The notes beneath the pieces are model-generated. The model worked only from the letters and a program-made list of their open reading frames with translations. It ran no database searches and was not told where the DNA came from. 64,000 bases of DNA from [Mycobacterium] nativiensis (GTDB taxonomy: Bacteria; Actinomycetota; Actinomycetes; Mycobacteriales; Mycobacteriaceae). The stretch spans positions 471,147-535,146 of the forward strand of contig NZ_CP083986.1 of the NCBI RefSeq assembly GCF_020172685.1, given 5' to 3'. Of this stretch, positions 9,788-14,002 are shown piece after piece; within the stretch, counting starts at the first letter, position 1, and every line of letters starts with the position of its first letter. The translations under genes and the position numbers were made by a program.

Positions 9788-11044
9788 ATGGATTTCGGAG
9801 CATTGCCGCCGGAGGTGAACTCCGGCCGGATGTATTCAGGTGCTGGCCCGGGGCCGCTGCTGTCCGCGGCCTCCGCCTGGAGTGAACTCGCCGCCGAGTT
9901 GCAGTCGGCGGCAGCGGGTTACGGCACTGTCGTCGCGGACCTCTCCGGTGATTGGCACGGTCCTTCTGCGGCAGCTATGTCGGTGGCGGCCGCACCGTAC
10001 GTCGAATGGATGAGGGGGCTGGCCGGCCAGGCCGAACAGGCGGGAGTCCAGGCGTCGGCGGCTGCCGCCGCCTATGAGGCGGCCTTCGCCGCGACCGTTC
10101 CGCCCCCGGTGATCGCCGCGAACCGCAGCCTGCTGATGACATTGATAGCGACGAACATTCTGGGGCTGAACGGGCCGGCGATCGCGGCCACCGAGGCTCA
10201 GTACGCCCAGATGTGGGCCCAGGATGCCGCCGCCATGTACGGCTACGCGGGTGCTGCGTCCGCGGCCACCAAGCTGACGCCGTTCGCGGAGCCTCCGCCG
10301 ACCACCTCTGAGGCCGGCGCGGCCGATCAGCAGGCTGCGGTAGCTCAAGCCGCCACCACCTCGGGAGGCTCGGTGGGGCAGCAGATTTCGCAGGCACTGA
10401 CAACACTGCCCAATACCTTGCAGACGCTGTCTGCGAACCCCGCAGCGGCGTCGTCAACGTTGCCAGGGGGTCTCGGCACCGACCTGGCCAACTGGAACAC
10501 GATCATGTCCACCTTGACCGGCCCCTACGAACCGCTGCTGGGCGCCTCCTCGATGGTCGGTGGTCCGTTTCTGTCGTTCGGGCAGAGCTGGAGTATGTGG
10601 CTCAACTCCCTGGGGGCCGGCTCCTACCTGGCCGGCCCGAAGGCCATCAGCGGCGCCTTGACGCCGTTGGCGCCAATGGCGAGCCCGAACGTGGCAGGTC
10701 TCGCCGGGGCACCGGTGACCGGTTCGCTAGGGCGTGCGGCCCTGGTCGGAAAGCTGTCGGTGCCGCCGGCGTGGGGTGCAACCGCGCTGCCGATCCAACC
10801 GGTCTCCCTGTCGTTGCCTGCGGGGGCGGCCGCTCCGGCAGTCGCATTCGCGGGCGAGGACGCGCTGTTCAGCGAGATGGCACTCTCCAGTCTCGCCGGC
10901 CGAGCGATGGGGGCGACCACCGGCCGCGCCGTCGGCGCGACGATCACCCGGGCGACGGGCTGTGGGGTGAGCGCCGAAGTCCTCGGCGAGGCAGACCCTG
11001 CGGCGGCCACCATCGTCGTGATCCCGGCGCTCGATGAGGACTGA
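9788..11044 (+). CDS. PPE family protein, SVP subfamily
   Basis: A protein of 418 residues. The PPE domain fills the first ~175 residues: it opens MDFGALPPEVNSG, has the WHGPSAAAM helix-turn motif, and long Ala-rich helices ending near AEPPPTT. The C-terminal part contains the GxxSVPPAW-type motif (GKLSVPPAWG), which defines the SVP group. PPE proteins are exported by type VII secretion systems, usually bound to a PE partner, and sit in the outer membrane or capsule. Some serve as solute channels. No PE gene or ESX component is in the window. The ATG at 9788 begins exactly at the PPE domain; the upstream frame extension is rejected. First gene of the likely operon with SbtA. Confidence 0.92.
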   Translation: MDFGALPPEVNSGRMYSGAGPGPLLSAASAWSELAAELQSAAAGYGTVVADLSGDWHGPSAAAMSVAAAPYVEWMRGLAGQAEQAGVQASAAAAAYEAAFAATVPPPVIAANRSLLMTLIATNILGLNGPAIAATEAQYAQMWAQDAAAMYGYAGAASAATKLTPFAEPPPTTSEAGAADQQAAVAQAATTSGGSVGQQISQALTTLPNTLQTLSANPAAASSTLPGGLGTDLANWNTIMSTLTGPYEPLLGASSMVGGPFLSFGQSWSMWLNSLGAGSYLAGPKAISGALTPLAPMASPNVAGLAGAPVTGSLGRAALVGKLSVPPAWGATALPIQPVSLSLPAGAAAPAVAFAGEDALFSEMALSSLAGRAMGATTGRAVGATITRATGCGVSAEVLGEADPAAATIVVIPALDED

Positions 11045-11126
11045 ATCGCGATGAGCAATGACGTTGTAAATCACCCTTTTTCAGCCAGCGTGACGCCGGC
11101 ACGAGTCATCAGATGAGGGCTGCCAC

Positions 11127-12437
11127 ATGTACTTTTCGTTCATACCGCCGGAGATCATCTCGGGAAACATCTACACCGGACCGGGATCCGGTCCGCTGCT
11201 GGCGGCGGCGACCGCCTGGGAACGGCTGTCCGGCGAACTGCAATCTGCGGCAGGCGAGTACAACGCTGTGGTGGCGGGGTTGACCGCGGAATCATGGGCG
11301 GGGCCGTCGGCCGCGTCGATGGCGGCCGCGGCCGGCCCCTATGCGGCATGGATGTCCGTCACCGCGGAGCAGGCCGCCGAAGCCGCCGCGCAGGCACAGG
11401 CGGCGGCAGCGGCCTACGAAACCGTCTTTGCCGCGGTCGTACCCCCGCAGGTGGTGTCGGCCAACCGCACCCAGCTGATGGCGTTGATGGCGACGAACGT
11501 CGTAGGTCAGAACACTGCCGCAATCGCGGCGACCGAGGCCCAGTACCTGGAGATGTGGGCACAAGATGCCGCGGCCATGCACGCTTACGCTTCGTCGTCC
11601 GCGGCCGCCACGAAGGTCAGATCCTTCACCGAGCCGCCGGCGACCACCAACGGGGCCGCGGCGCCTGCGGCCGCATCCGCGGCCGGTAACCCCATCCTGC
11701 AGTTCGGCGCCGACATGGCCAACCAATACACGTCGTTCTTCAACAACTTGCTCAACACTATGGCCGGCACGCCGGACGCCGGTTCGACGTTCTCGGCGCT
11801 TTACTCCGCTGCCAAGGTGCCGCTCGGCATGACCACGCAGTTCAACGCCAGTTCCTTGGCCGCTCAATTTCCCATCCAGAATTTCTTGAAATTCGCTCCG
11901 CCGCTCGGGCGGGTTCCGACCGAGATCCCGGCGACAGGACTTGGGGCGGGACTCGCGATGAACTCGTCGCTGCCCGGCGGTCTCGGGTCAACCGTCTCGG
12001 CGGGGATGGGAGAAGCCAACCTGGTGGGGTCGCTGGCCGCCCCCCCGGCGTGGGCCGGCCAATCCCCCGCGATCAGGGTGGCGGTCAATGCTGTGCCGAA
12101 CGCGGGCGCGGTCGGTGCTCCCGCCGCGATTCAGGGAAACGTGCTGGGTCAGATGGCCCTCGGGGGTATGACCGGTGGCGCCGTAGGCAGTTCGGTACCT
12201 CGGGTCGCCGGTGCGGCGGCGGGACGGACTCGCGTCACCACCGGTATGGGCGCGACGACGCCGGCCAGGATCGACAAGGTGCTCGCCAGGCTCCGGCACC
12301 AGCCCGAAACGGTCCAACACTGGAATACCGACCAGGCCGGATTGGACAGCCTGCTCGATGAGCTGTCACGGAAGCCAGGTATTCACGCCGTGCACCTCAA
12401 GGGCGCAAAGAAGGCGACTACGACACCTGCGCCATGA
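11127..12437 (+). CDS. PPE family protein, second tandem copy (degenerate SVP motif)
   Basis: A protein of 436 residues. The N-terminal PPE domain starts with FSFIPPEIISGNIYTGPG, has the motif ESWAGPSAASM and the conserved end SFTEPPATT. At the position of the SVP motif it reads GSLAAPPAWAG, so the Ser-Val pair is replaced. The last 70 residues are an unusual, basic and soluble tail (from about GMGATTPARIDKVLARLRHQ to the end), not typical of PPE-SVP proteins. GAGGG precedes the ATG at 11127. It lies 82 bases after the first PPE gene and 48 bases before the permease, in line with one operon. Expected to be exported by an ESX system encoded elsewhere. Confidence 0.92.
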   Translation: MYFSFIPPEIISGNIYTGPGSGPLLAAATAWERLSGELQSAAGEYNAVVAGLTAESWAGPSAASMAAAAGPYAAWMSVTAEQAAEAAAQAQAAAAAYETVFAAVVPPQVVSANRTQLMALMATNVVGQNTAAIAATEAQYLEMWAQDAAAMHAYASSSAAATKVRSFTEPPATTNGAAAPAAASAAGNPILQFGADMANQYTSFFNNLLNTMAGTPDAGSTFSALYSAAKVPLGMTTQFNASSLAAQFPIQNFLKFAPPLGRVPTEIPATGLGAGLAMNSSLPGGLGSTVSAGMGEANLVGSLAAPPAWAGQSPAIRVAVNAVPNAGAVGAPAAIQGNVLGQMALGGMTGGAVGSSVPRVAGAAAGRTRVTTGMGATTPARIDKVLARLRHQPETVQHWNTDQAGLDSLLDELSRKPGIHAVHLKGAKKATTTPAP

Positions 12438-13676: not shown

Positions 13677-13678
13677 CG

Positions 13679-14002
13679 ATGGTGAGACAACTTGTCGTCC
13701 CGGCGGCCCTGGCGGTTGCATTGGTGTGCGCCGGCCCGGCCCCGGCGGATCCCGATCCCGCGGACAACGACGCCGCTTTCATTGCATCGCTGCGGCAGTC
13801 GGGCATCAGGTTCGCCGATGAAGTGCAGGCGATCGCGGCCGCGCATTCGGTCTGTGGGCTGATCGACAATGGCGAGTCCGGGCTCCAAGTGGTCAAAGAA
13901 CTGAATAGTGATAATTCCGGTCTGACCATGGATGGTGCTGCGCGGTTCGCCGCCATCGCCGCGAACTCCTATTGCCCGGATCAGTTGAAGGGTGCCAAGT
14001 AG
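13679..14002 (+). CDS. Secreted DUF732-type small protein
   Basis: A protein of 107 residues with a Sec signal peptide (about 1-24, ending in an Ala-Asp-Pro site). The helical mature domain has the two conserved cysteines of DUF732 (in HSVCGLID and NSYCPDQ), which probably form a disulfide. The FIASLRQSGIRF opening and the final CPDQL are typical of the family. DUF732 proteins are common, short exported proteins of mycobacteria with unknown roles. The start codon comes 2 bases after the permease stop, so the two are surely co-transcribed. This suggests a periplasmic role connected with the permease. Confidence 0.85.
   Translation: MVRQLVVPAALAVALVCAGPAPADPDPADNDAAFIASLRQSGIRFADEVQAIAAAHSVCGLIDNGESGLQVVKELNSDNSGLTMDGAARFAAIAANSYCPDQLKGAK

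Follow-up and report, generated by a model that had tools for sequence, protein, structure and literature searches.

A PPE-PPE-Sbt_1-DUF732 gene unit in [Mycobacterium] nativiensis that is related to the mycobacterial pe20 locus

A 64-kb stretch of the [Mycobacterium] nativiensis contig NZ_CP083986.1 (64,000 nucleotides, positions 471,147 to 535,146 of the forward strand; hereafter the window) carries a block of four genes, all on the + strand and arranged head to tail. The nearest named relatives of this genome are Mycolicibacter. The first two genes encode proteins with a PPE domain and an SVP C-terminus, PPE1 (9788-11044; 418 aa; Pfam PPE 3.6e-65, PPE-SVP 8.4e-08) and PPE2 (11127-12437; 436 aa; Pfam PPE 4.9e-62, PPE-SVP 6.6e-08). 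The third encodes an SbtA-type permease (12486-13676; 396 aa; Pfam Sbt_1 1.5e-95) and the fourth a secreted helical DUF732 protein (13679-14002; 107 aa; Pfam 5.7e-20), with spacers of 82, 48 and 2 bp separating the four. An earlier account made from the letters alone (the sequence-only reading) had described this content and the 2-bp junction, and Pfam, the reading frames and the spacers bear it out. In a simple scan, neither a terminator-like site between the four genes nor a sigma-70-like promoter was found, the sole terminator-like match lying 5' of the block (9321-9337). The start of the DUF732 protein looks signal-peptide-like by eye and two of its cysteines are invariant in the alignment. 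It had no PDB relative by sequence, and its structure model (mean predicted local distance difference test score, pLDDT, of 72) gave no PDB fold match at E <= 0.001.

Together the four genes make up an operon-like unit that shares its descent with the pe20 locus. In M. tuberculosis the order at that locus is PE20, PPE31, PPE32, PPE33, Rv1810, MgtC (PMC12810186, PMC4278808). When 248 genus genomes were searched with PPE1 (E <= 1e-108), 70 of them had a single match each, and about 9 kb per side was fetched for the 69 other than the window genome; this sample overlaps the permease-based sample described below (e.g., L157/L008, L158/L009, L166/L081). The trio PPE1-PPE2-DUF732 was present in the same order in all 69. 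Downstream of it, on the same strand and in some cases after extra PPE genes, mgtC was found in 55 of the 69. With some pieces ending at contig ends, ESX-5 genes lay within the fetched piece in 51/69 and an M-box lay 5' of the trio in 43/69, as counted with a model built from four Rfam hits. Sbt_1 was located between PPE2 and DUF732 in eight of the 69, as in the window, and just 5' of PPE1 in one, M. shimoidei. Six had neither Sbt_1 nor mgtC (L156, L164, L184, L197, L212, L215), and the pieces of L197, L212 and L215 end at a contig end soon after the trio. In a quick tree, the window PPE1 fell in a 26-row clade with M. shimoidei P0036 (Shimodaira-Hasegawa-like approximate likelihood ratio test, SH-aLRT, 98), a protein named PPE32 by one source, and the 13 cassette PPE2 rows were sister to M. 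shimoidei L081:11206 (SH-aLRT 90). By sequence and synteny, PPE1, PPE2 and the DUF732 protein correspond to PPE32, PPE33 and Rv1810 of the pe20 locus, which is regulated by Mg2+ and adjoins ESX-5. There is very little doubt about the anatomy of the four-gene set or its kinship with pe20.

The order of the four genes recurs in other genomes, where the sequence-only reading had proposed to look for it. In a permease-based scan of genome contigs the best 80 of 292 loci were kept, 12 of them cassette loci and 68 not. All 12 loci with the most window-like permease (L003-L014; 71-84% identical to the window's; 11 titled Mycolicibacter and one Mycobacterium sp. UM_WGJ) displayed the order PPE1-PPE2-Sbt_1-DUF732 with short gaps, at two unrelated sites, and the 13 cassette permeases formed one clade (bootstrap 100, SH-aLRT 99). 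The ratio of nonsynonymous to synonymous substitution rates (dN/dS) was 0.13-0.24 in six gene comparisons (all four genes against L003; PPE1 and Sbt_1 against L004), which indicates that the compared genes are under purifying selection and, with the Pfam matches, rules out chance open reading frames (ORFs). In a wider family sample, PPE1 was matched (E <= 1e-110) in five of 201 genomes including its own, all in the window's genus. Within a genus sample searched at E <= 1e-97, Sbt_1 occurred in 76/77 genomes with a PPE1 match vs 17/171 without, a striking co-occurrence that is shaped by phylogeny and thresholds and that we do not take as proof.

At the first type of site (window, L003-L006) the block is flanked by a methyltransferase gene and a gene of the metallo-beta-lactamase fold; at the second (L007, L012) it follows ATP-binding cassette exporter and dehydratase genes and precedes acyl-CoA dehydrogenase genes (Pfam for L007). 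The remaining loci (L008-L011, L013, L014) are without window-type flanks, and the leaders of L007 and L012 can be aligned with their counterparts in L008-L011 and L013. The window-type site was empty of the block in all three type-2 genomes fetched (L250-L252), with about 0.4-0.7 kb separating the methyltransferase gene from the lactamase gene, and the window genome has the type-2 dehydratase gene (90% identical) with no PPE or Sbt_1 match within 12 kb (L245). PPE1 identity between the two cassette types was about 60%. The block may have moved, or one of two ancestral copies may have been lost. Because it is intact at two unrelated sites with unlike leaders, it is the coding block, not its surroundings, that has been kept together.

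The pe20 set of Mycolicibacter is in two pieces, with the trio standing elsewhere beside Sbt_1 where other genomes have MgtC. In the window genome, the ESX-5 site (L117), which carries MycP5- and EccA5-like genes, has an M-box, PPE31 and MgtC and no DUF732 gene; its best PPE1 match scored 277 bits, compared to at least 366 in the 70 trio genomes. MgtC and the ESX-5 genes lie at about 2.39-2.40 Mb of G000:C1 and the cassette at 0.48 Mb. The same M-box-PPE31-MgtC arrangement without the trio was found at nine of nine further sites of the lineage (L225-L231, L233, L234; some one-sided), so that 10/10 Mycolicibacter ESX-5 sites read, window included, agree (G275 is outside this count). The split would be the derived state. 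In the genus sample the cassette lineage is set apart by PPE2, which scored 494-590 bits in ten other genomes and at most 394 elsewhere, and the permease is present in nine of its 11 genomes, window included. M. shimoidei has another arrangement, the order of its cluster being M-box, PE, PPE31, Sbt_1, PPE32, PPE33, DUF732, PE, PPE, PPE, MgtC.

The Sbt_1 domain of the permease is full-length (model positions 1-307 of 308), and the protein matched PDB SbtA 7cye with an E of 3e-20, or 5.9e-29 with a 21-row profile. Its AlphaFold model, built from a 21-row alignment, was too poor to interpret (mean pLDDT 50). Bicarbonate has been placed in SbtA by docking and mutants at Ser114, Tyr140, Ser324 and Ser327 (Liu et al., PMC8352866). 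The window permease has Ser, Leu, Ser and Ala there, keeping two of the four contact side chains, and the two retained serines at the crossover, Ser114 and Ser324, were found in all 99 mycobacterial and planctomycete rows. By sequence the protein is probably a Na+/anion symporter, and we consider transport of a small anion by it reasonably likely; that this anion is bicarbonate has somewhat less than an even chance.

Other Sbt_1 genes have neighbours of several kinds. MbtI and/or HemN genes lay near Sbt_1 in 53 of the 68 non-cassette loci, and in L015 sulfite reductase and 3'-phosphoadenosine 5'-phosphosulfate (PAPS) reductase genes follow it. A SulP anion transporter gene was near Sbt_1 in 10/68, at two unrelated sites, and the one SulP neighbour tested had as its best PDB match 6ki1, which is deposited as a low affinity sulfate transporter and which we take to be BicA. 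In seven Mycobacterium loci (L042, L055, L067, L070, L073, L077, L080) Sbt_1 is followed by the SulP transporter at the mbtI/hemN site, four of them with a tandem Sbt_1 pair, and the SulP transporter also adjoins a second-type Sbt_1 in three Mycolicibacter loci (L022, L024, L050). This second, different Mycolicibacter-type gene accounted for 10 of the 68 non-cassette loci. Going by gene order, the Sbt_1 at the mbtI/hemN site is presumably Rv2387 of M. tuberculosis, and this position makes it doubtful that M. tuberculosis is without an Sbt_1. One paper calls Rv2387 a conserved protein predicted to be a membrane permease and an effector of host signalling (PMC9504853), but another places rv2387 among phosphodiesterase genes (PMC11090507).

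A second Sbt_1 of the window genome (L123:5785-7008; C1:227802-229007) has as neighbours a major facilitator superfamily transporter (NarK-like by eye), a GNAT acetyltransferase and CT_A_B, CT_C_D (KipA/KipI-type) and 5-oxoprolinase-like genes. We take the KipI/KipA genes of M. tuberculosis to be Rv0263c and Rv0264c. Both of the latter are among CO2- and pH-responsive genes (PMC11895460). Two Isosphaeraceae (Planctomycetota) metagenome assemblies (L018, L040) hold an Sbt_1 64% identical to the window's, possibly by horizontal transfer or a binning error, and disrupted extra copies were seen in G219 (C1:1826254-1827411) and G371 (C1:1931623-1932752), one with an internal stop and one split in two frames.

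As to the PPE proteins, the PE20/PPE31 pair is reported to mediate outer-membrane passage of Mg2+ (cited in PMC11895460 and PMC12810186) and to be needed in low Mg2+/low pH (PMC12810186). In M. tuberculosis, CO2 induced pe20, ppe31 and ppe32 whatever the pH, and ppe33 responded to both CO2 and pH (PMC11895460, whose main text mentions neither Rv2387 nor Rv1810).

From these elements a working model can be drawn. The four genes would be co-transcribed, and the PPE pair would be exported by ESX-5 to the mycomembrane, where it may ease the passage of a small hydrophilic ion, for which PE20/PPE31 and Mg2+ offer a precedent. The exported helical DUF732 protein may serve as a periplasmic docking or chaperone partner. 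Sbt_1, as a putative elevator-type symporter, would then move a small oxyanion over the inner membrane with the Na+ gradient. HCO3- would be the most likely substrate, destined for carboxylases and for pH, and formate, sulfate or the like the alternative. A two-membrane uptake system was the proposal of the sequence-only reading. The recurrence of the four-gene unit and the pe20 precedent speak for it, and it is plausible and better founded than before because the trio are relatives of pe20 genes; the trio's apparent restriction to this permease did not hold. For the whole chain, a pe20-derived unit importing a small ion over two membranes with the anion left unspecified, we estimate a probability of roughly 0.5, and that the four genes act together in some way we hold to be slightly better than an even bet.

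Several observations weigh against this model. In the cassette lineage, L156 and L164 (2/11) carry the trio but no Sbt_1 with it, the absence being clean and tblastn giving no significant remnant there; L156 shares the window's flanks, and each of the two genomes retains one other Sbt_1. Of the 68 non-cassette loci, some of them ended by contig ends, 67 had no related PPE gene near Sbt_1, the one exception being M. shimoidei (L081). There, Sbt_1 is loosely packed, with spacers of about 0.2 kb on the PPE31 side and 0.6 kb on the PPE32 side, and it branches apart from the cassette permeases. Attractive as the idea is, we do not claim that Sbt_1 was recruited to the trio twice independently, since a joint clade was not rejected (approximately unbiased test, AU, p 0.189). 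The trio is thus not specific to Sbt_1, being mostly found with mgtC and no neighbouring Sbt_1, and being Sbt_1-less in those two lineage genomes. In M. marinum a Mg2+-responsive element of its own drives mgtC (PMC4278808), and MgtC is thus not necessarily the operon partner of the trio everywhere. As the sequence-only reading had stated, the PPE genes have no PE partner: tblastn with one PE query gave 0 matches in the whole window at E <= 10, and the same query found none in the cassettes of 11 relatives (L003, L007, L012, L157-L159, L162, L163, L165, L167, L177). No M-box was found in window 8500-15000 (Rfam) or near the cassettes of L003, L006, L007 and L009, and the leaders of the two site types had no detectable sequence in common, so no shared regulation was seen. 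Leu replaces Tyr140, and either Ala or Thr replaces Ser327, throughout the 99 mycobacterial and planctomycete rows, and no PII-like (SbtB) gene was among the six window genes scanned with Pfam. Because this change of the ligand site is clade-wide, bicarbonate is not shown as the substrate, and its naming in the sequence-only reading was an annotation transfer. A 2025 study of M. marinum made the case for PPE51 as a surface-associated protein rather than an integral porin (PMC12607722). The window genome also has two further PPE-PPE-DUF732 sets with no permease gene following (L115 and L116, at about 5.08 and 2.68 Mb), and PPE-PPE-DUF732 looks like a recurrent unit; by eye, MmpL-like genes are among the neighbours of L115.

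Alternatively, the trio might have an envelope or Mg2+/acid-stress role of its own, with Sbt_1 merely inserted and using the operon promoter. The two permease-less genomes of the lineage, the mgtC downstream of the trio in 55/69 and the surface association argued for PPE51 are in keeping with this, as are the two further sets in the window genome, which have no transporter among their listed neighbours save the MmpL-like genes. We nevertheless consider it unlikely, given that the order is intact at two sites and across a divergence as deep as about 60% PPE1 identity, and that M. shimoidei has Sbt_1 beside the same trio in another arrangement. There is a different account, in which Sbt_1 replaces MgtC as the acid/low-Mg2+ partner of the trio and bicarbonate buffers the cytoplasm, making the unit an acid-stress device and not one for nutrient uptake. 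The pe20 kinship, the M-box 5' of the M. shimoidei cluster that holds Sbt_1 and the reported need for PE20-PPE31 in low Mg2+/low pH (PMC12810186) fit such a role, but the cassettes examined lack a nearby M-box and the ESX-5 site still has its MgtC gene, and we regard this account as quite improbable.

The unit may also work as proposed on another anion (formate, sulfate, sulfite or another carboxylate), or the permease may export, a possibility that we lean against. Two of the four ligand side chains are altered, an Sbt_1 of Shewanella has been linked to formate tolerance with the authors' modelling fitting efflux better (PMC12093963), and the MbtI and/or HemN genes beside 53/68 non-cassette permeases and the sulfite and PAPS reductase genes of L015 point the same way. 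On the other side stand the retention of Ser114 and Ser324 in 99/99 rows, the likeness of the SulP neighbour to 6ki1 (taken to be BicA; deposited as a low affinity sulfate transporter), and the induction of the counterpart locus by CO2 in M. tuberculosis (PMC11895460). A broader form of the proposed two-membrane model, in which PPE32-PPE33-Rv1810 is a portable mycomembrane uptake module partnered by MgtC in most carriers and by an Sbt_1 bicarbonate symporter in Mycolicibacter, is speculative and we give it a low chance; if it held, the CO2 response of pe20-ppe33 elsewhere would reflect an inorganic-carbon role besides magnesium.

Upstream of the block, a 46-aa ORF (9484-9624, + strand) with a strong ribosome-binding site may encode a leader peptide, its conserved C-terminal motif being VEGYLQRR.HRPWR.RGS. 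This tail is conserved 5' of PPE1 in L003, L004 and L006, and was also found 5' of the PPE32 counterparts of two pe20-type loci (L161, L169) and 5' of an unlinked Sbt_1 in L052; a protein search with the ORF gave no candidate. Identity with uORF2/Rv1805A of pe20 was not supported, as that upstream ORF is described as N-terminally conserved with a proline at position 7, which is absent here. The only Rfam leader match in window 8500-15000 was a sub-threshold radC hit inside PPE1. Several kb 3' of the cassette, some Mycolicibacter genomes have an M-box and, after it, a PE-PPE pair (L012:15563-15735; L235:6413; L236:12180), the M-box of L012, about 6 kb downstream, being the only one there. Genes named by eye as an NhaP-type antiporter and a TrkA-like protein lie upstream of the cassette (window 5801-8134), and the NhaP gene is probably unrelated to it, since it is also present at three sites without the cassette.

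The passage of small ions across the mycomembrane is an open matter, and few cases so far stand behind the idea of pairing between PPE proteins and specific inner-membrane transporters. Here a natural partner swap, with MgtC in the 55 genomes above and an SbtA-type permease in Mycolicibacter, is accompanied by relatives lacking the permease only, which makes the pairing hypothesis directly testable in laboratory strains of non-tuberculous species. The unit is also a possible handle on mycobacterial bicarbonate uptake, with bicarbonate a lead and not a result. Among the open-licence papers listed in literature searches, no title or abstract opening reported transport by a mycobacterial Sbt_1, and none described the set, in line with the sequence-only reading, which knew of no description of the combination; the trio itself is, however, known from the pe20 locus.

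Among known systems, cyanobacterial SbtA (Synechocystis slr1512, 7cye; a Na+/HCO3- symporter) shares with the window permease the family over nearly its full length as well as Ser114 and Ser324, whereas the window has Leu for Tyr140, Ala for Ser327 and Ala for Ser322, and no SbtB-like gene among the genes scanned. The Rv2387-type Sbt_1 found between mbtI and hemN in Mycobacterium sensu stricto is 62-71% identical and has the same altered site but, unlike the window's, no PPE or DUF732 partner. With the PE/PPE nutrient facilitators (PE20/PPE31 for Mg2+, PPE51 for sugars) the set has in common PPE-SVP proteins, an ESX-5 organism and an inner-membrane neighbour of transport type; it differs in being without a PE partner. 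The closest likeness is to the pe20 locus of M. tuberculosis, with which it shares the PPE32-PPE33-Rv1810 trio in the same order and orientation (M. tuberculosis gene names and order as given in PMC12810186 and PMC4278808). Compared to that locus, the cassette is without the M-box, PE, PPE31 and MgtC, lies away from ESX-5 and carries Sbt_1 in the interval that separates its counterparts of PPE33 and Rv1810. The four-gene set is thus real and conserved, and its kinship accounts for it: one half of the pe20 locus, standing at another chromosomal place with another partner.

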